A DNA stretch of 25,876 nt, from positions 1 through 25,876 of the IMG/VR virus record IMGVR_UViG_3300044987_001988; one strand, written 5' to 3'. The position numbers were made by a program, and so were the translations under genes. This stretch comes from a virus. Below the pieces are notes generated by a model, which worked only from the letters and a program-made list of their open reading frames with translations, searched no databases and had not been told where the DNA came from. Of the stretch, positions 14,882 through 25,392 are shown piece by piece. Position 1 is the first letter of the stretch. Each line of letters opens with the position of its first letter.

Positions 14882-14910
14882 AAAAATATCTCCATAATGG
14901 AGATATTTTT
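14882..14910. terminator. Bidirectional intrinsic terminator between convergent halves
   Basis: A perfect 13-bp stem (arms 14882-14894 and 14898-14910, AAAAATATCTCCA and its complement) closes a 3-base loop. T-rich sequence follows on the + side, and the arm's own A-run gives U's on the - side. It lies between the last late gene and the dUTPase stop, so it can end both convergent transcripts. Confidence 0.9.
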
Positions 14911-17023: not shown

Positions 17024-17230
17024 TTATTTGTTCCAATCTCTTTCCTCAATAGGTTTTTTCAATTGTTCTTCGTACCAATCATCGGGGTCAGGTTCTTCTG
17101 GAATTACGAAGCCACATTCACAAACTTCTCCACCAGAAACAAATTTCATAACTCTACCACAATCACAGTTCCAGAAATATCCAACTATTCCGTATCCATC
17201 ATTAAAGGGTTCATAGTTTAATTTTTCCAT
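17024..17230 (-). CDS. Small zinc-binding hypothetical protein
   Basis: This 68-residue protein has two CxC knuckles, C22-C24 (WNCDCG) and C37-C39 (VCECG), 12 residues apart, forming a likely four-Cys zinc site. An acidic C-terminus (PEEPDPDDWYEEQLKKP) follows. The start overlaps the kinase-like gene's stop (TAATG), so its translation depends on that gene. It could be a partner of the kinase-like protein, which is inference from coupling alone. Confidence 0.65.
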   Translation of the reverse strand: MEKLNYEPFNDGYGIVGYFWNCDCGRVMKFVSGGEVCECGFVIPEEPDPDDWYEEQLKKPIEERDWNK

Positions 17231-17679
17231 TAGTCTTTTTTCAATCTCCCATAGTCATAGCAGAGAATTTTATTATCTGTAGTTATACCACACCCATACA
17301 TAGTATTATCTGGATAAATATCTGCATCCCATCTCAAATCATAGTATTCAAGAATTTCTAAGAACTTGTCCTTATCTTTATGTTTCTTTGGATTAGGATG
17401 CTTCCTAAACTTCTTCTTTTCCATTATCACATACTCTGTATTTTTTATTTTTCCAAACTCAAGTACGGGAACAAAGAATTTTTTATGGTGTTCTAAAAAC
17501 TCGTTCCATTTTTTATATTCAATTAAAGATTGTTTGCCGTCACCAAAATCTATCTTTACGATGAATTCATTATTGTAATAAATATCTCTCGTAAAGTCTC
17601 CAGTTACTTGACCTCTCTTTTTAGTAAGTCTTTCTCCGTTGAGGTAAACTTTCGATTTACTTATATATCTCAAGTCCAT
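17230..17679 (-). CDS. Minimal protein-kinase-like protein
   Basis: This 149-residue protein keeps the core motifs of the protein kinase fold in order. There is a strand with K42 (FIVKID, the ATP-anchoring Lys), a helix with E54 or E60 (SLIEYKKWNEFL), a hinge-like YVIMEKK near 83-89, a catalytic-loop pattern D120-x4-N125 (DIYPDN) and a metal-binding DYG at 142-144 (CYDYGRL). The chain ends just after DYG, so the activation segment and most of the C-lobe are missing. It could be a small-molecule kinase, a compact protein kinase or a pseudokinase. The start at 17679 has GGGAG upstream; an earlier ATG lies upstream of the predicted transcription start. It is the first gene of the promoter near 17710, a place for an early host-modifying protein. 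Confidence 0.6.
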   Translation of the reverse strand: MDLRYISKSKVYLNGERLTKKRGQVTGDFTRDIYYNNEFIVKIDFGDGKQSLIEYKKWNEFLEHHKKFFVPVLEFGKIKNTEYVIMEKKKFRKHPNPKKHKDKDKFLEILEYYDLRWDADIYPDNTMYGCGITTDNKILCYDYGRLKKD

Positions 17680-17702
17680 ATAATCTCCCGTGATTAGAAT
17701 TG

Positions 17703-17726
17703 CCCTTAGTCTATCACAACTAAGGG
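17703..17726 (-). promoter_or_regulatory. Inverted repeat overlapping the kinase-operon promoter
   Basis: CCCTTAGT (17703-17710) and ACTAAGGG (17719-17726) form perfect 8-bp arms 8 bases apart. They lie across the -10 box and spacer of the promoter. No T-run follows on either strand, so it is not a terminator; it looks like a repressor operator. Confidence 0.6.
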
Positions 17727-17744
17727 TAATTGTCAAGGGTCAAT
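17708..17744 (-). promoter_or_regulatory. Promoter for the kinase-like to dUTPase operon
   Basis: On the - strand, TTGACA (17731-17736) is followed after exactly 17 bases by TAGACT (17708-17713), preceded by TGA, an extended -10 of the TGn type. A second TTGAC lies 7 bases upstream (17739-17743), giving TTGACCCTTGACA; it overlaps the HNH gene's TGA stop. Predicted transcription starts near 17701, about 20 bases before the kinase-like start codon. It matches the promoter at 25350-25385 in layout. Confidence 0.75.
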
Positions 17745-18192
17745 CAAAATTTGTTTTTGCAAATTCTCCAAACATTTCTCTTGCCTTTTGGTCGTATGCT
17801 TTGGCGGCTTCTACTTCATCTTTATATCTTCCGATATAAATATATTTACCGTTCAACATTATTACAGACTTCCAACTTCCAGAATTAAATGTTATACCTT
17901 TGTATCTACTGAATGAATTATAGTTTTTTCTCCTATTTCTTAAGTTTTCTGCTTTTGTACAGACTCTTAAATTAGACTTCTTATTATTTAAACCGTTTCC
18001 ATCTATATGGTCTATAACTTTTCCAACAGGATACCCCATTATAACCCTATGCATTAAAACTCTTCCTATACCAGCATATGATATATTTTCATTTATTATC
18101 AATTCTTTCCATTGAAATTTTGATAAATAAACGTAATCATCATCGTCCACAAGTGCATAGTTTTTTGTATTTTCAAATTTTATTTTTTTCAT
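17740..18192 (-). CDS. HNH-AP2 homing endonuclease
   Basis: This 150-residue protein is a free-standing HNH nuclease with an AP2 DNA-binding domain, a mobile-gene type that copies itself into cognate sites. The start is the family's usual opening (YALVDDDDYVYLSKFQW near 12-28). The HNH core is at about 48-78, with H48 (LMHRVI), D61-H62 (VIDHIDG), N70 and N74 (NNKKSNLR). The AP2 domain is at about 96-148 (SRYKGITFNSGSWKSVIML, then GRYKDEVEAAKAYD). It lies 18 bases after the ribonucleotide reductase stop. There is no Shine-Dalgarno site, and a palindromic site overlaps the start codon, so expression may be low or specially controlled. Confidence 0.9.
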   Translation of the reverse strand: MKKIKFENTKNYALVDDDDYVYLSKFQWKELIINENISYAGIGRVLMHRVIMGYPVGKVIDHIDGNGLNNKKSNLRVCTKAENLRNRRKNYNSFSRYKGITFNSGSWKSVIMLNGKYIYIGRYKDEVEAAKAYDQKAREMFGEFAKTNFD

Positions 18193-18208
18193 AAAAGAGT
18201 CATTTTAT
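18191..18208. repeat. 18-bp palindromic boundary site 4
   Basis: ATAAAA-GAGTCA-TTTTAT between the reductase stop and the HNH gene, overlapping the HNH ATG by two bases. It replaces a ribosome binding site at this start. Its flank (TTTTATTG) is shared with the copy at 25593. Confidence 0.7.
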
Positions 18209-18210
18209 TG

Positions 18211-19830
18211 CTATAATCCACAAACCCCATCTGCACATTCTTCATTGCCTTCAAAAACAACATTTTTCTTTGTGATTGCCTCATTAAAGTCAACGCTCGT
18301 TAAAGGCTGTCCTCCTCTAGAACCATCTGGGTAGACAGTAATACCTCTTAATTTTGGCAGATATTTATAAAGAATTTCCCCGAACTTCTTGGGGTCATTG
18401 TTTCCAATAGAGCCAAAAGGAGAAGTGTTTATTGTTGAAGAAATTGCATTATCCACATAACTCTGAACAAATGCTTGAAATGAAATTCTTTTTTCAACAT
18501 TCATAGCCAAAGAATATGAATCCTCAACTTTACTCATATCATAACCTTCTTCATGAAGTCTTTCTGCAACAAAGTCCACAACATACTGCTGTTTCCATCC
18601 TTCAGGGGTTAAATATCTTCGCTTATAAGCTAAAGAAAAGATTGGTTCGATTCCAGAGGTTGTTTGACCACCAGCAATACTAATCGTGCCATTTGGTGCG
18701 AGTGCGCGTAGTTTAATTGGTTTACTAACTCCAAGTTCCCTAGACCATTTTTCAGATGCATTTTCACTTTCATCTTTCCAATTCTGCAACCATTCTCCAA
18801 AAAGGTCATTTGGTTCATACTTCTGACCGTTTCTAATTAACCACTCATGGATACCCATCAGTCCCAATCCTAAACGCCTATTTCTTCGTTTAACCTCTTT
18901 TACTTTCGGATGAGGAACGTCTGAATATTCTGTCCCAGACAACAAAAATAAAATCGCCAAATTAGTTACTTCTTTCAATTCTTCAATATCTTTAATTTTT
19001 GGAAGATTAATTGAACCAAGACAACAAACATCGCAATCATCTTCTGAAACAATTTCCGTACATGCATTTCGGAGGGATTCATTTTTATTGTCATAATCAA
19101 CGCTAAATCCCGGTTCGCCATTTCTAACCATACTTTCAACTACTTTCCAGTAAATATCTTTAGCGTGCTTATGCAGAGGGTTTTCTTTATCATCGTATGC
19201 ATCAAAGAAATCTTTATCTAAAATAACAGAAATATTTGTCATATCCAGAGGTGCTGGAAAATCAAAATCCTTTTCCTTTATTTTTTTTACTTCTTCAGTC
19301 CAATTCTTAGCTTCAATAAAATCAAAAATATCTCCATGAGACCATCTTAGTCCAGCCCAAATAGCTGAACGCCTCTTTCCTCCCGCCATTACACCTCTTC
19401 CAATTTCATTAATCATTTTCATTAGAGGAATTGAACCAGAAGAAACACCTCCACTTCTTTTGAGGGGTGAATTTTTAGGTCTAAGATTTGAATAATCAAT
19501 ACCTAAACCACCACCAGACATAAGCATAACCGTTGCTTTATTTGCCAAATCGCCCCAAGATTCTCTGGTGTCTTCAGCTCTCAAAAGAAAACAATTATTT
19601 ACTTGATGATAATCCCTACCTGCCTGAGCAAGAAATCTTCCACCGGGAATAAATTTTCTTTCGGCAATCATCTTTTCTATTTTTTTCTGATAAATTTCCC
19701 TGTCTGTAAACTCAATTGGAGAAAGAATAAATTTCGAAACTCTTTTTGCAATATCTTCCCAAGTTTCCTTACTCCCATCAGGTTTGTCCCAAGAATACCT
19801 CAATTTCATAATGTCTTCTGAAAATCCCAT
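18211..19830 (-). CDS. nrdJ: Class II (B12-dependent) ribonucleotide reductase
   Basis: This 539-residue protein reduces ribonucleotides to deoxyribonucleotides using adenosylcobalamin to make the radical, so it needs no separate radical subunit, and none is seen. Visible motifs are C80 (NNCFLL, first redox Cys), GGGLGIDYSNLRP (107-118), SGGVSSGSIPLMKM (126-139), the active-site NACTE (255-259, radical Cys C257), C270 or C269 (second redox Cys, CLGSINLP), PNGTISIAGG (379-388), SGIEPIF (392-398) and the C-terminal CADGVC pair (C532, C537) that passes electrons to thioredoxin. It is shorter than many bacterial class II enzymes, as phage forms often are. AGGAGG is 9 bases before the ATG. HNH genes flank it on both sides. 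Confidence 0.92.
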   Translation of the reverse strand: MGFSEDIMKLRYSWDKPDGSKETWEDIAKRVSKFILSPIEFTDREIYQKKIEKMIAERKFIPGGRFLAQAGRDYHQVNNCFLLRAEDTRESWGDLANKATVMLMSGGGLGIDYSNLRPKNSPLKRSGGVSSGSIPLMKMINEIGRGVMAGGKRRSAIWAGLRWSHGDIFDFIEAKNWTEEVKKIKEKDFDFPAPLDMTNISVILDKDFFDAYDDKENPLHKHAKDIYWKVVESMVRNGEPGFSVDYDNKNESLRNACTEIVSEDDCDVCCLGSINLPKIKDIEELKEVTNLAILFLLSGTEYSDVPHPKVKEVKRRNRRLGLGLMGIHEWLIRNGQKYEPNDLFGEWLQNWKDESENASEKWSRELGVSKPIKLRALAPNGTISIAGGQTTSGIEPIFSLAYKRRYLTPEGWKQQYVVDFVAERLHEEGYDMSKVEDSYSLAMNVEKRISFQAFVQSYVDNAISSTINTSPFGSIGNNDPKKFGEILYKYLPKLRGITVYPDGSRGGQPLTSVDFNEAITKKNVVFEGNEECADGVCGL

Positions 19831-19861
19831 ATTGTACTACCTCCTAAATTTTAGATAACAA

Positions 19862-19883
19862 ATCCACCATATTTCAGGTGGAT
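19862..19883 (-). terminator. Stem-loop between zinc-HNH gene and reductase
   Basis: ATCCACC (19862-19868) pairs with GGTGGAT (19877-19883) over 7 bp around an 8-base loop, in the 80-base gap downstream of the zinc-HNH stop. The tail in the - direction (TTGTTA) is only weakly U-rich, so read-through into the reductase is likely. It may be a partial terminator or an mRNA stabiliser. Confidence 0.4.
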
Positions 19884-19910
19884 ATTATTTTTACTGTTTT
19901 TCAATCAAAA

Positions 19911-20507
19911 TTACCATAAATCATCGTAGTGAAGTTTTATATGTTCTTCTCTGGTCAACTCTTGTAAATTTTCAATTCTATCATCCTTAGAATTCTTGTT
20001 TATGTGATGAATAACATTTCCATTTTTAATATCTCCATTATGTTGTTCCCACACCCAAATAGAATAGAATTTCCATTCATTCTTACCAATTTTTATTTTA
20101 TTTCTCTCTTTGTTATTATTATCTAAAAATGTTACTACGTCTCCTATTTTATAACCATAATGGCTCTCTCTTTCACAAGAATTACACCTAATAGCTTTTT
20201 TACTTATCTTTATTCCACACTCTAAACAAACCCCTTTATATGGGTCACATTTAACACAAAGAGATTTTAATCCATTTATGTTATTAAAACTTTCTCCACA
20301 CCCACTACATATTCCGATATATATTCTTTCACTAGGAATAAAGCAGTTTTTACAAGTTAAAATCAAAATCCTTCCTTTATTTTTTACATATGCTCCACAC
20401 CTTTGACAATGATGGAAACAGTATTTACATCTTTTTTGAACTCCTGTTGTCGGAGTAAATATTTTTCCGCAAGATTCGCAATTCTTTTTCTTAAAAATTT
20501 TTTTCAT
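19911..20507 (-). CDS. HNH endonuclease with four N-terminal zinc ribbons
   Basis: This 198-residue protein carries eight CxxC pairs in its first 111 residues (C10/13, C27/30, C34/37, C52/55, C67/70, C84/87, C94/97, C108/111), enough for four zinc ribbons. A linker strand (GYKIGDVVTF) leads to a C-terminal HNH domain at about 150-195, with the conserved VIHHINKNSKDDRIENLQEL core (H167, H168, N171, N180) and H189/H193 after it. The zinc array probably reads DNA for the nuclease. It starts in an ATGA overlap with the DUF1599 gene and has no strong ribosome site. It lies beside the reductase, as homing endonucleases often do. Confidence 0.85.
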   Translation of the reverse strand: MKKIFKKKNCESCGKIFTPTTGVQKRCKYCFHHCQRCGAYVKNKGRILILTCKNCFIPSERIYIGICSGCGESFNNINGLKSLCVKCDPYKGVCLECGIKISKKAIRCNSCERESHYGYKIGDVVTFLDNNNKERNKIKIGKNEWKFYSIWVWEQHNGDIKNGNVIHHINKNSKDDRIENLQELTREEHIKLHYDDLW

Positions 20508-20779
20508 TTAAATAATACCATTGACTGTATCGAATAACCCGCAATGTCTAAGAATGTATCTTCAATTGTTTCACTCTTTACAGAAATTTCTTTTTTTTCA
20601 AATATTAAATTATGAAGTCTAGAAATCTTGTCCGATAATCTAACTAGAACCCCTAGTCTCCCATATCTCAATAGGTTTTCACTACCATAATCCCGATGTT
20701 TCGAAATAAGCAGTAATTTTATTTTATTCAAAACCTCATCTAGTTTTTTTTCATATTCATCAAACTCAATATTATTCAT
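20504..20779 (-). CDS. DUF1599 / MazG-like nucleotide-associated protein
   Basis: This 91-residue protein matches the DUF1599 group (nucleotide modification associated domain 1, related to MazG-like helical proteins). It has KHRDYGSENLLRYGRLGVLV (28-47), RLSDKISRLHNL (47-58), and the acidic ETIEDTFLDIAGYSI (70-84). The Glu/Asp residues would bind metal and nucleotide phosphates. Such proteins sit in phage nucleotide-metabolism clusters and may clean up or handle dNTPs. GGAG lies close to the ATG inside the upstream gene's 3' end, and the stop overlaps the zinc-HNH start. Confidence 0.75.
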   Translation of the reverse strand: MNNIEFDEYEKKLDEVLNKIKLLLISKHRDYGSENLLRYGRLGVLVRLSDKISRLHNLIFEKKEISVKSETIEDTFLDIAGYSIQSMVLFK

Positions 20780-21062
20780 TTTTCTCCATATAAATAAGTA
20801 TTAAATTTTCAATATTCGTTAAAACACTTTTTAAAACATCTTCGGTATTTCTATTCTCCCTACAATCGCAGACAATTTTAAGGTCTAAATAAGTTGAAAA
20901 TAAATTATCTAAAATCTCATCAATCTCTAATTTTTTACTTTTTATAATTCTAAGTTCTTGATAAGGAATTATCAATTTAGTTATTTTCTCAGGATAAGGA
21001 AAATTGGTATTCTTTAAATAATCATTTTTAATTTTGTCATAATACTTATTACTAACAGACAT
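20772..21062 (-). CDS. Hypothetical helical protein
   Basis: This 96-residue protein starts at ATG 21062, chosen for AGGAG upstream (CAGGAGTAAAAATG). It is mainly charged helices, with YPEKITKLIIPYQELRIIKS in the middle and LTNIENLILIYMEK at the end. It overlaps both neighbours by about 8-11 bases, giving a coupled run. I see no motif that assigns a function. Confidence 0.6.
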   Translation of the reverse strand: MSVSNKYYDKIKNDYLKNTNFPYPEKITKLIIPYQELRIIKSKKLEIDEILDNLFSTYLDLKIVCDCRENRNTEDVLKSVLTNIENLILIYMEKNE

Positions 21063-21303
21063 TTTTACTCCTGTATAATCTCTCACGCTGTCTATCAATC
21101 CCGATAGCAATTCGATTGAAGTGATTTACCAAGTCAATATAGTCTCTATCGGCAAACCAATCTGAGGCATCCCTATAAGATTGGGGGTCATTATTCAATA
21201 CAGCATATGAGATAATTTGAATAATTTCCACAAACTCTCTCTTTTCTGAAAACTTACCGAAGATTGATTTCACTAAATATTCTTTATCATAGCAGTTATA
21301 CAT
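21052..21303 (-). CDS. Hypothetical protein
   Basis: This 83-residue protein has helices (REFVEIIQIISYAVL) and an acidic aromatic segment (SDWFADRDYIDLVNHFNRIA). The start follows only a weak purine site and overlaps the FmdB-like gene by 8 bases, so it is likely translated by coupling. The family is not recognised. Confidence 0.55.
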   Translation of the reverse strand: MYNCYDKEYLVKSIFGKFSEKREFVEIIQIISYAVLNNDPQSYRDASDWFADRDYIDLVNHFNRIAIGIDRQRERLYRSKNVC

Positions 21304-21487
21304 CTTTCTTTACTCGTTTGGTGAAGCCTTTTGCCCTGTACACAACGGGGAAAGATTTTTTGATGACACTTACAATTCTATTTGACTTACCACACTCAGG
21401 ACACTTAATTGGTTTAGTATCCGTGTAAGACCGTTCAACCTCAAATTCGTTATTGCAATTTCCACACTTTTTGTCGTACTTTGGCAT
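21296..21487 (-). CDS. FmdB-like zinc-ribbon protein
   Basis: This 63-residue protein has the FmdB-family zinc ribbon: MPKYDKKCGNCNNEFE with C8 and C11, then IKCPECGKSN with C29 and C32, then the characteristic PVVYRAKGFTKR tail. FmdB-like proteins are small putative transcriptional regulators; a phage copy might alter host transcription. GGAGAG precedes the ATG, which lies 1 base from the upstream stop. Regulatory function is inferred from the family name and is not well established. Confidence 0.75.
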   Translation of the reverse strand: MPKYDKKCGNCNNEFEVERSYTDTKPIKCPECGKSNRIVSVIKKSFPVVYRAKGFTKRVKKDV

Positions 21488-21488
21488 A

Positions 21489-21698
21489 TCAACTCTCCTT
21501 CGTAAATGTGATTAAATATGAATTTCTAACCTTTTCTTTATAGTCTAACCAAATCAAAATCCTATAAAGTAATGCAGATAATGAATTGAATTTAGTTGAG
21601 TTATCTCTATCTGACCATAACATAAAATGTTCTGTGTCGAAGCATACGAAACTTTTTTTACTATCACTGTATAAACTTGTTTGCTTTATATTTTTCAT
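21489..21698 (-). CDS. Small hypothetical protein
   Basis: This 69-residue protein begins MKNIKQTSLYSD, has a beta hairpin (SFVCFDTEHFMLW), then a helix (LSALLYRILIWLDYKEKV) and a short strand (SYLITFTKES). AAGGAG precedes the start by 7 bases and lies just after the polymerase stop. It does not match a known family. It sits in the replication operon immediately after DNA polymerase. Confidence 0.6.
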   Translation of the reverse strand: MKNIKQTSLYSDSKKSFVCFDTEHFMLWSDRDNSTKFNSLSALLYRILIWLDYKEKVRNSYLITFTKES

Positions 21699-21710
21699 TT
21701 ACACTCCTTT

Positions 21711-24395
21711 TTAAATTTCATTTACAATTGAATAGTCTAAAAGCCAATAATCGTACTTACCTTCAATTGGGTCATATTTAGGTTTACCGTTTTCATCTTC
21801 TCCAGCAAATCTAACTGACTGTTTTTTGTCTATTCCACCATCGGGCAACGATAATATTTGACCTACACAAAATTCTTTCTTAGCAAATATCTTTCTAGCT
21901 ACTTTGAAAGTTTCAATATTACCAAATTTAAGTGACTGTATCTTAGCCTTCGGGGAATTCTTCGTATCTAAATCAATTACGAATCCCATTCTACCTTTCA
22001 ATCCATCAAACTTAGTTTCAATTCTACCAAGAATGGTTAATTCATTTGAGATTTTTTCCATTACTGAAAATTCTTCTTCAGGTAAACTATTCCAGATTTC
22101 TTGTAATTCTCCCAATCTTTTAACCTTAGATTTTTCAGCAAGTTTATTGGTGTACTTGGACTTCCCCTTTCTAAACTCTTGGAAAAATTTAAGAAGTTTC
22201 TTACCTGAGCCATATTGTGAAAAATAGCCTATTTTAATTAGGTCTTCGAATTTACTAGCTACCATCGAGTTATTTTCTGCTAAAACTAGGAAGTCTACAA
22301 ATGATGTTTCATTGGAATTGTTATTTATCCATAATAAGTTATCCACGACCTTATCTGCAAGTCCCTTCATTCCTCTTAAGGAGTAAAACAATTCATCTTT
22401 TTGTTTTCCATCATTTTCTGGAACAAATCCTTCTTCTTCGTCAACGAATGCCTCCATTGTTTCATTGTATATAATTGCATCGTCCAATAAGGCTCTACAT
22501 TCTGACAAATAATAATCGTAATCTATATCATATTGTGAAAAATCAATAGAAGAATCGAAATCGTTCAACATCCTAACTTTTTTTCCAACATATAAACCAA
22601 TTACTCCTTTTTCTTTTTTAATTGGCTCACCTTTTTCATCTCTTGCAAAATCACTTATCCAAGTTACAAATTCCATTTCTCCAACAGTAGAACCCTTCCT
22701 TCGTTTAATTAATTTTCCACCAGATTTAGAAATATAAAACCTATTTGTTTTTTGCAGTATTTCCACAGTCTTATCATCTTTATGGTATTCAGCAACAAAG
22801 TCAGAACCCATTTTCTGAGAAGCACAAAAATCAAGAATATTTCTATGAGAGTAGAGAGTTTCTTCAATTGGGATATTATTTATTACATACTGATAAACTG
22901 CCTTCGGTACAATTGGATATTTATACCCTTTTTTAATTTCCGCATAAGGGATATATACACCTTTTGTTTTTACTCTATCCTTTTCTTCACCATATGGTTT
23001 TTCACTAATATAGTTATTGATGTCTCTTCTGAAATATTGTTTATAATCAGTAAACTCTACACCTATCCCTACTTTCTCAGCAAAACCGTTTGCAATTGAG
23101 TAATATGTTTCTTCTAACTCTATAGGTATTCTACATACAATACCGTCAGTGTTCGCGGAAATAACTTGAATTCCAGCAAGTACAAAAGATTCAATCATCA
23201 TCAACAAATACAATTGTCCGGGGAGAGTAACTTTCAATACTGCCATGTTGTCCCTAAACCAAGAACCCGCAAAGCCCAACTTCCCGTAAACTGAATTAAC
23301 AGTTACCTTCAATGCCGCCGCTTTAACTTTATCTGTGGCTTTCGCTTTTACACGTTCTTTAGTAATTTCATCCAAGATAACTAGGAAATCATCTTTAACA
23401 TGTTCTGGCTTAACTTTATTTTTAATCATCATTGAGGTGTAGTAGCTCGAAAAATCACAATCCCTCAATATGTATTTGTCGTCCGTGAAAAACCTTGCTG
23501 GAAAATCTACACTATGTAAACCACCTGAAGCAACCTTATATTCTACTCCACCAAAGTTTACTATCTTTGTCATGGCGTAATTTGTCGTTTTTCTTACCAA
23601 TGTTTCTGAGATTTCTCTTAATATTCTTTTAAAGTAGTTTGTCTTAAATTCAACATCAGATGGGATGCAATCCTTAATATAAAATTGTTCTCTCTCCACA
23701 ATAAAATCTTTTAGTTTTCTAACGTTGATTTCACCAGTCTTTTCTTTATAGAACTTCTCTAATAACTTATCTCCAATTTTACTATCACTATCACTCATCA
23801 AATTTAACGAGTACATCTCCGAAAGCTGTTCTCTTAAAATAATGTCTTTATATATCTTTTCATATAATTTTAATGAAATCCAAACATCATTCAAGTTGTA
23901 TGAAATAATTAGATTTGCTTCGTTCCAATTCTCTACCTTGTGGTCAAAGGGTAGTGGTAGGTCTTGTATTTTATGCCATTGTAAATTTATTCCAACCTGT
24001 TTTAAACTTGGAACATTTCCGTTTACTTCAATAATTTTCATTAAATCTATCTGATTGTATTTAACATTTTCTGTATATTGATATTGTTTAAGTTCTGGAT
24101 GATACCCACCTTTTTCCATATGAATCAAGTCACTTGAAAATTCAAATGCGTCTTCAAGTAATCTGTTTGAAGTCTTATTTTGTATAATAAATTGCATAAC
24201 TGGAGCATCATATGAAATATTGTTGAATCCAACAATTGTTATCTCGGAATTTAAAAAATCAATTAATTCATTCAATTGGTTAACTTCTTTGAAAATTGTA
24301 AAAACTAGAACCTCAGATGTATCGAGAACATTCATGAAGGTTACACAAAAGAAGTTTCCTCCCATTAATTCTATATCATATACATATCGTTTCAT
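21711..24395 (-). CDS. Family B DNA polymerase with 3'-5' exonuclease
   Basis: This 894-residue protein is the replicative DNA polymerase. The exonuclease domain has D7-I-E9 (Exo I), N58-x3-Y62-D63 (Exo II, VGFNNISYDAP) and Y166-x3-D170 (Exo III, SYNLNDV). The polymerase domain has an SGGLHS turn (290-295), motif A D314 (CDFSSYYTS, where the usual Pro is Thr), motif B KVTVNSVYG (363-371) and motif C NTDG (415-418). Motif C has Asn where most family B enzymes have the first Asp, but the second Asp D417, the metal ligand, is kept. Residues beyond about 560 form a long C-terminal region not clearly matched here. GAGG in the end of the upstream HNH gene is its ribosome site. A protein-primed type is not supported: there is no terminal protein. 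Confidence 0.93.
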   Translation of the reverse strand: MKRYVYDIELMGGNFFCVTFMNVLDTSEVLVFTIFKEVNQLNELIDFLNSEITIVGFNNISYDAPVMQFIIQNKTSNRLLEDAFEFSSDLIHMEKGGYHPELKQYQYTENVKYNQIDLMKIIEVNGNVPSLKQVGINLQWHKIQDLPLPFDHKVENWNEANLIISYNLNDVWISLKLYEKIYKDIILREQLSEMYSLNLMSDSDSKIGDKLLEKFYKEKTGEINVRKLKDFIVEREQFYIKDCIPSDVEFKTNYFKRILREISETLVRKTTNYAMTKIVNFGGVEYKVASGGLHSVDFPARFFTDDKYILRDCDFSSYYTSMMIKNKVKPEHVKDDFLVILDEITKERVKAKATDKVKAAALKVTVNSVYGKLGFAGSWFRDNMAVLKVTLPGQLYLLMMIESFVLAGIQVISANTDGIVCRIPIELEETYYSIANGFAEKVGIGVEFTDYKQYFRRDINNYISEKPYGEEKDRVKTKGVYIPYAEIKKGYKYPIVPKAVYQYVINNIPIEETLYSHRNILDFCASQKMGSDFVAEYHKDDKTVEILQKTNRFYISKSGGKLIKRRKGSTVGEMEFVTWISDFARDEKGEPIKKEKGVIGLYVGKKVRMLNDFDSSIDFSQYDIDYDYYLSECRALLDDAIIYNETMEAFVDEEEGFVPENDGKQKDELFYSLRGMKGLADKVVDNLLWINNNSNETSFVDFLVLAENNSMVASKFEDLIKIGYFSQYGSGKKLLKFFQEFRKGKSKYTNKLAEKSKVKRLGELQEIWNSLPEEEFSVMEKISNELTILGRIETKFDGLKGRMGFVIDLDTKNSPKAKIQSLKFGNIETFKVARKIFAKKEFCVGQILSLPDGGIDKKQSVRFAGEDENGKPKYDPIEGKYDYWLLDYSIVNEI

Positions 24396-24398
24396 CTA

Positions 24399-25130
24399 TT
24401 ATTCCTCTATTCCATATTCCTCAAATAAGTGACGCTGTGGGGCAAATTCTCCATACAGGTCTCTTTCCAACTCTAATCTTCTAGTTACAGCATCATGAAA
24501 GTATTCAAAGTAATGATTAATTCTTTTCCCATTATTTGAAATATAAGAATGCCATACGGATTCACTAACTCTACTTACCCCAATTACACCTGAAGTATTA
24601 TTTGTTAGAGAACGTTCTCTATTTATGTTATTCAATTGTATTGTAATTAGTCTCAAATTTTCGTCTCTATTATCGTTTCTTTTTCTGTTTATGTGGTCAA
24701 CAGTTCTTATTTTTGTAGCACCCATAATTAAGTTGTGCATAAAAATTGTTCCACTACCCATTCTTGCTTTAGTTTGAGCATAACCCTGATTTCCAACAGA
24801 CCAAGAATAATCTTTAAGCATTTCGTATTTATTTTTACTAAAATAAAATTCTTTTCCTTTATAGTCTACTCCAAGAATTACATTTCCTTCCAATTCATAA
24901 TATTCATTAACTTTATGACATGCTTCCCAAACTTTATCTAATCTAGTACACCCACAGCCCGCAGTCATATTACGCCTAATGTTTTTTCCTAAAACATGAA
25001 GTTTTTCATTTCCACAGTCACAAATACAATCACAAAAATCTCTGTTTTCCCCAGTTGACATTTTCTCATAATATTGCCTTAGAACAGTTAACATACCGTA
25101 CTTCTTTCCAACCATATCTTCAACTGTCAT
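24399..25130 (-). CDS. HNH-AP2 homing endonuclease with zinc N-terminus
   Basis: This 243-residue protein combines three domains. An N-terminal zinc module (C33, C35, C37, C39 in DFCDCICDCGNE, with C59 and C61 in AGCGC) has the common CDCGN...CGC pattern of AP2-linked nucleases. A KGKEFYFSKN beta module precedes the HNH core at about 131-165 (H132, D145-H146, N148, N154, DHINRKRNDNRDENLRLI). An AP2 domain follows at about 180-232 (GVIGVSRVSESVWHSYI, then FHDAVTRRLELERDLYGEFA). It lies just upstream of DNA polymerase, whose ribosome site is inside this gene's last codons. The start overlaps the previous small gene by 11 bases. Confidence 0.9.
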   Translation of the reverse strand: MTVEDMVGKKYGMLTVLRQYYEKMSTGENRDFCDCICDCGNEKLHVLGKNIRRNMTAGCGCTRLDKVWEACHKVNEYYELEGNVILGVDYKGKEFYFSKNKYEMLKDYSWSVGNQGYAQTKARMGSGTIFMHNLIMGATKIRTVDHINRKRNDNRDENLRLITIQLNNINRERSLTNNTSGVIGVSRVSESVWHSYISNNGKRINHYFEYFHDAVTRRLELERDLYGEFAPQRHLFEEYGIEE

Positions 25131-25296
25131 GAATATCTACCCCATTTAGAAAATCTGCGATTATTTCTAAGTATTGAGAAGGGAAATAACTACCCTGAAG
25201 CCATTCTCCAAAATCGTTTTCCCAAACATAGTATGTAGTGTTGGGATTCCTAACACTATTAGATTTAGCAAGTTCATAAACTTTATTCTTATCCAT
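25120..25296 (-). CDS. Small hypothetical protein, first gene of the replication operon
   Basis: This 58-residue protein begins MDKNKVYELAKSNSV and carries an aromatic acidic segment WENDFGEWLQGSYFPSQYL. AGGAG lies 9 bases before the ATG, and the stop overlaps the HNH start. It follows a promoter and inverted repeat directly, so it is the first product of the replication transcript. There is no family match. It may be a small regulator, which is speculation from position. Confidence 0.65.
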   Translation of the reverse strand: MDKNKVYELAKSNSVRNPNTTYYVWENDFGEWLQGSYFPSQYLEIIADFLNGVDIHDS

Positions 25297-25325
25297 AGCT
25301 TTACTCTCCTCTGTTCATAAATAAA

Positions 25326-25354
25326 AAACTACTTCTTTATTAGAGAAGTAGTTT
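25326..25354 (-). terminator. Terminator hairpin that also overlaps a promoter
   Basis: Arms 25326-25336 (AAACTACTTCT) and 25344-25354 pair perfectly over 11 bp with a 7-base loop. In the - direction the stem is followed by TTTTTTATTT, a classic intrinsic terminator for the upstream zinc-ribbon transcript. Its right arm covers the -10 box of the promoter at 25350-25385, so the same sequence may act as an operator. Confidence 0.75.
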
Positions 25355-25385
25355 ACCATAATGTTTCATTTCTGTCAAGTGTCAA
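25350..25385 (-). promoter_or_regulatory. Promoter for the replication operon
   Basis: On the - strand TTGACA (25373-25378) is followed after 17 bases by TAAACT (25350-25355), with TGG just before (extended -10). A second TTGACA sits 7 bases upstream (25380-25385). Predicted start is near 25343, inside the terminator hairpin, giving a leader of about 47 bases before ATG 25296. It shares layout and the 14-base ATTGACnCTTGACA with the promoter near 17710. Confidence 0.75.
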
Positions 25386-25392
25386 TTCTACG

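Follow-up and report, generated by a model that had tools for sequence, protein, structure and literature searches.

The window, i.e. the whole 25,876-nt stretch that was analysed (the entire IMG/VR record IMGVR_UViG_3300044987_001988, yet only a fragment of a bigger phage), contained two minus-strand promoters, here designated P1 and P2, each carrying a second TTGAC word 7 bases above the -35 box and each situated within a strong inverted repeat overlooked in the preliminary description of this DNA. The same word, in the form TTGnC, recurred at the same distance in related phages, and the doubled element is thus probably a real, undescribed accessory promoter element, position-locked and typical of one phage family, and not a coincidence. 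As the best explanation, P1 and P2 would be host primary-sigma promoters that start gene blocks, with TTGAC serving in some promoters as an accessory element spaced at a 7-base period and with each promoter fused to a stem-loop, a composite reading that we hold at about even confidence.

Direct reading of the minus strand confirmed the claimed layout at both sites, ATTGACnCTTGACA, a 17-base spacer ending in TGn, TAnACT, and A; the coordinates previously assigned were correct for P1 but one base short for P2, in which the full motif begins at nt 25386 instead of 25385. P1 (nt 17744-17707) consisted of ATTGACCCTTGACA (17744-17731), the 17-base spacer ATTACCCTTAGTTGTGA, TAGACT, and A. Its upstream element, ATTGACC, occupied nt 17738-17744, with TTGAC itself at 17743-17739 (7 bases above the -35 box, at about -42), followed by the -35 box TTGACA (17731-17736) and the -10 box TAGACT (17708-17713) preceded by TGA. 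P2 (nt 25386-25349) consisted of ATTGACACTTGACA (25386-25373), the 17-base spacer GAAATGAAACATTATGG, TAAACT, and A, in which the upstream element ATTGACA (25380-25386; TTGAC itself at 25385-25381, about -42), the -35 box TTGACA (25373-25378), and the -10 box TAAACT (25350-25355, preceded by TGG) were located. Both matched 10 of the 12 consensus bases of sigma-70/sigma-A promoters with a spacer of 17, and TGA and TGG represented the optional extended -10. With a consensus TTGACA and a TATAAT-like -10, the two sites were promoter-like, in line with the earlier view of them. From the position of the -10 boxes, transcription was predicted to start at about nt 17701 and 25343, respectively. For sites of the form TTGACA-N16-18-TANACT, the expected number in the window was 0.10, and two were present in only 3 of 100 shuffled sequences; even with 5 mismatches allowed, no third copy of the full motif was found in the rest of the record.

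The plus strand of the record encoded tail proteins, whereas the minus strand encoded DNA polymerase, HNH endonucleases, ribonucleotide reductase, and dUTPase. Host primary-sigma RNA polymerase would read P1 and P2, each opening a minus-strand gene block. Directly after P1 was a minus-strand gene for a protein of 149 aa (nt 17230-17679), function not assigned, whose orthologues in two relatives, G012 and G001, were also preceded by promoters. Between the ribonucleotide reductase gene and P1 was a minus-strand gene for an HNH/AP2 homing-type endonuclease (nt 17740-18192), the stop codon of which (17742-17740) overlapped the extra TTGAC of P1. This gene was absent at the corresponding site of G012, where the promoter directly succeeds the reductase gene; by this comparison it looks like an insertion upstream of P1. 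Downstream of P2, the order was a gene for a protein of 58 aa (nt 25120-25296, function not assigned), an HNH endonuclease gene (24399-25130), and the DNA polymerase gene (21711-24395), all on the minus strand. A strong hairpin followed by a T tract at nt 14882-14910, between the plus-strand tail block and the dUTPase end of the minus-strand block, is likely a terminator for convergent transcripts.

Search of a phage collection with the window DNA gave no match and protein matches were distant, and no relatives were found with the DNA polymerase as bait. The ribonucleotide reductase, however, retrieved a pair of relatives, G001 (147.7 kb) and G002 (129.7 kb), with 76% identity, and alignment of a tail protein yielded 40 loci, including two short contigs of the same phage (L323 and L324, 100% identical) that contained tail genes only. 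The records from this alignment that were taken whole or nearly whole were G011, G012, G013, G016, G017, G019, G020, G021, G023, G025, and G026; the relatives were picked by protein homology, independently of the promoter motif. The tail genes matched those of phages of Bacillus, Lactococcus, and Clostridioides, which only suggests a host belonging to Bacillota. The large relatives possessed numerous tRNA genes, 24 in the pieces of G001 searched (L317 and L321) and 7 in those of G002 (L308, L311, and L312), some of them directly behind promoters of the same kind; the window fragment has no tRNA gene. Two int-alpA RNAs (RF02996) were observed in G002 (L309:8261-8329 and L309:3360-3427, near nt 28160 and 23260) directly downstream of the family promoters at nt 28125 and 23226, and similar small RNAs without a match were located behind the promoters at G002 48325 and G001 113814. 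In this phage family, several int-alpA RNA copies seem to be expressed.

Of 151 promoter-like sites in 12 relatives, the window being excluded, 14 had TTGnC at an upstream distance of exactly 7 bases from the -35 box; 39 other offsets gave 0.62 on average, and among 893 non-promoter sites there were 3 (Fisher 5e-10). The offset and the word TTGAC had been taken from the preliminary description, while the form TTGnC was picked after a peak for TTGAC with up to one mismatch had been seen in the same data. That peak comprised 23 of 126 promoters of the relatives (window again excluded), as against 0 to 9 at other offsets, and when the columns were permuted with composition kept, 12.1 were expected (p<0.0002). 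Among all gapped 4-mers at all positions above the -35, TTGnC ranked first (14 observed versus 2.7 expected), and those ranked second and third, AAT.G at -9 and AAA.T at -10, were the same motif extended to AAATTGnC. In eight more distant relatives the peak was there but weak (3 of 127 versus 0.54). The preliminary description had made its case depend on further promoters with the doubled element, and these were found in relatives, with exact copies of TTGACCCTTGACA at G001 50253, G002 86659, and G021 5363 and 72494. A ribosome site and an ATG lay within about 130 bases downstream of 10 of the 14 doubled sites, compared with 115 of 890 non-promoter sites. The upstream TTGnC was carried by only about one-tenth of the family promoters. 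A perfect TTGACA was present in all 14 doubled promoters (99 of the 137 others), indicating that the upstream element does not rescue a weak -35, whereas TGn was present in 3 of the 14 (68 of the 137 others). At P1 and its orthologues, the upstream word read TTGACCC in the window, TAGACCC in G012, and GTAGCCC in G001; thus CCC, TTGACA, TGn, and the -10 stay while TTGAC drifts, and the element is optional at a given promoter.

The motif was not general among viruses, its enrichment being confined to relatives of this phage. Across IMG/VR, the exact doubled motif was found in 22 contigs, compared with 20 for a control of the same composition and 23 for a shifted control, representing 9, 6, and 10 lineages by spacer similarity, respectively. 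No exact TTGAC at offset 7 was observed in an unbiased set of 127 viral TTGACA-N14-TGnTAnACTA sites, and among these generic viral loci TTGnC occupied offset 7 in 3 of 392 promoter-like sites with no peak; the control-level contig counts together with these two results rule out a general viral motif. In the generic viral promoters (L043-L162), TTGnC peaked instead at offset 5, as TTGnCTTGACA (9 of 392, with a mean of about 1.4 elsewhere), a tandem spacing different from that of offset 7. Six viral contigs and one contig of a bacterial MAG (L003, L004, L010, L012, L014, L019, and L042) shared the full doubled motif in near-identical contexts, apparently within coding sequence, which probably reflects a single conserved gene that matches by chance.

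These counts bear on the possibility that the doubling at P1 and P2 is coincidental, the family favouring A/T and then ACC or CCC above TTGACA and so yielding TTGACCC or TTGACAC. CC at -2/-1 is indeed typical of the family (C at -2 in 30 of 69 promoters versus 13 of 127 generic viral promoters, p=2e-7), the P1 orthologues retain CCC and not TTGAC, and the exact motif does not exceed its controls across all viruses. However, the column permutation retains composition and largely refutes this explanation, many doubled sites lack CC (TTGCCTA, TTGGCTA, and TTGACTA), and offset 7 is sharply unlike offsets 6 and 8. We consider coincidence aided by composition improbable, and the permutation rules out family composition, that is, CC above the -35, as the full cause.

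Concerning the reader of the element, ten family records, which are fragments, gave no match to Sigma70_r4 or Sigma70_r2 above the cut-off, with a single sub-threshold r4 match in G001. This finding argues against reading by a phage-encoded sigma factor, and the host RNA polymerase is the most likely reader of these promoters. When 291 genomes from a single bacterial class, entered via one Oscillospiraceae genome (L031, G044), were surveyed, TTGnC above TTGACA-N17-TATAAT was found at period 7 in 57 places in 44 genomes, compared with 34 at period 6 (31 genomes), 25 at period 8 (20 genomes), and 17 for the scrambled TGTnC at period 7 (16 genomes), the places being counted without de-duplication and a few being repeats of one sequence. 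Thus, period-7 TTGnC was about 2-3 times commoner in this class than the shifted or scrambled controls. Such mild enrichment would favour a reader that bacteria share, the simplest candidate being RNA polymerase itself. In the explanation preferred here, an accessory element with a consensus of roughly AAATTGnC(C/T)(A/C) would abut the -35, always with a period of 7 bases, in some of the family promoters. The host polymerase may contact this element by way of sigma region 4 or the adjoining alpha C-terminal domain, in the stretch from about -45 to -38. The contact would strengthen the promoter and provide no alternative start register. A bipartite -35, in which bacterial primary-sigma polymerase has a second, sequence-specific contact with TTGnC exactly 7 bases above, as a so far undescribed core-promoter element with heavy use in one phage family and sparing use in bacteria, is proposed as a possibility of rather low likelihood.

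Class II activators are centred near -41.5 and touch sigma region 4. The preliminary description had already raised an activator or repressor, and the main rival to an accessory element read by host polymerase is that a regulator encoded by the phage or its host binds the upstream TTGnC and either touches sigma region 4 in such a class II-like manner or represses by overlap. The position from -42 to -38 would suit a class II activator or an overlapping operator, and the restriction to a subset of promoters of one phage family is in line with regulation, but all 14 doubled promoters have a perfect TTGACA, a core of this strength being unusual for promoters that depend on an activator. With a spacing of 7 bases, moreover, the repeats face different sides of the helix, the mild bacterial enrichment points to a common reader, and no candidate regulator was identified; we give a regulator a rather low likelihood. 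It had also been suggested that the two TTGAC copies offer two polymerase registers and hence two start points. The upstream TTGACA of P2 does have a 10/12 match, with spacer 16, to CATTAT, but P1 is without any such match, and the best -10 candidate at a distance of 16-18 bases from the upstream copy averaged 3.14 of 6 matches in doubled promoters and 3.07 in the others. As no extra -10 exists at the matching distance, a tandem promoter with an alternative register was rejected, and we regard it as highly improbable.

The inverted repeat at P1, AATTACCCTTAGT-tgtgatag-ACTAAGGGCAATT (nt 17698-17731, minus strand), spans the spacer, the -10, and the start region, lacks a T tract, and gave an RNA fold of -13.8 kcal/mol (z -4.1). 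In G012, the orthologous promoter (nt 22605), located before the orthologous gene, reads TAGACCCTTGACAAATTACCCCATCCGTGATAAGATGGGGTAATTCTAAT; four stem pairs were altered on both sides with the stem intact, and the gene downstream is the same in the window and in G012. These compensatory pairs argue for selection on structure, and the two sequences would fit either an RNA hairpin or an operator that changed together with its repressor. At P2, a predicted intrinsic terminator, AAACTACTTCT-ctaataa-AGAAGTAGTTT followed by a T tract (nt 25326-25354, minus strand; -11.3 kcal/mol, z -3.6), begins inside the -10 and overlaps the predicted start, which lies in or just before the terminator loop. RNA initiated at P2 would therefore miss the 5' arm, and the full hairpin would form part of transcripts arriving from genes upstream. 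Transcripts of upstream genes would then stop at the terminator, while those started at P2 would escape it.

In the family, dyads reaching p<=1/61 contained 10 of 71 promoters, where about 1.2 would be expected, and the type of overlap seen at P2 was also observed at G002 69457 and 105164 and at G001 75477, the first of these being the promoter of the orthologous DNA polymerase gene and built like P2. On these grounds the stem-loop, not the doubled box, might be the feature that matters, i.e. cassettes of a promoter and a stem-loop by which genes are insulated and shuffled, as reported for T4-type phages. Both window promoters are in dyads, the family total exceeds expectation, four compensatory changes preserve the P1 dyad in G012, and the P2-type overlap recurs in two relatives. 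Such cassettes leave the offset-7 peak unexplained, however; most doubled promoters have no strong dyad, and P1 has no T tract. Cassettes of this kind are entertained tentatively, as a minority view, and they are compatible with, not exclusive of, host-sigma promoters bearing an accessory element. Dyads such as AACCCTTGAcaaaTCAAGGGTT, centred on the -35 itself and in several cases followed by TTTT, were located at G002 60475, 96235, and 115639 and G016 49715, and represent a predicted second mode of terminator-promoter fusion in the family.

Elements just above the -35 are usually seen as A/T-rich contacts of the alpha subunit or as activator sites. If the element is real, a G/C-containing word at one exact distance would be a sequence-specific addition to the core promoter, enriched in phages without a detectable sigma factor and mildly in bacteria. 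The overlap of promoter and terminator suggests that compact phage genomes may end one transcript and begin the next within about 50 bases.

A search of the literature on tandem -35 boxes and on terminator-promoter overlap found nothing directly relevant; partial likeness to four known systems was evident. Promoter-early stem-loop cassettes of T4-type phages, in which an early-type promoter and a stem-loop occupy intergenic gaps, were reportedly described by Arbiol et al. in 2010 (cited in PMC4177764). P1 and P2 likewise have a promoter joined to a stem-loop, although here the hairpin overlaps the -10 or the start itself. Lambda CII-dependent promoters have TTGC-N6-TTGC around the -35, with a period of 10 and poor -35 boxes. 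Direct repetition of a TTG word around the -35 is shared, whereas the family shows a period of 7 with no peak at the CII-type period of 10, and its doubled promoters have a perfect -35. T4 early promoters are of the sigma-70 type, their UP, -35, TGn, and -10 elements all coming close to consensus (PMC2988021), and are likewise element-rich promoters of the host polymerase with extra consensus outside the core (PMC2988021). Their upstream signal, however, is an A/T-rich UP element, in contrast to the TTGnC locked 7 bases above TTGACA in this family. The UP element, A/T-rich and extending from -60 to -40, is bound by the alpha C-terminal domain (PMC2988021). Its proximal subsite overlaps the same stretch, and the family consensus also starts with AAA, AAA.T at -10 and AAT.G at -9 being enriched along with TTGnC; the TTGnC word itself, however, holds a conserved G and C in place of an A tract.
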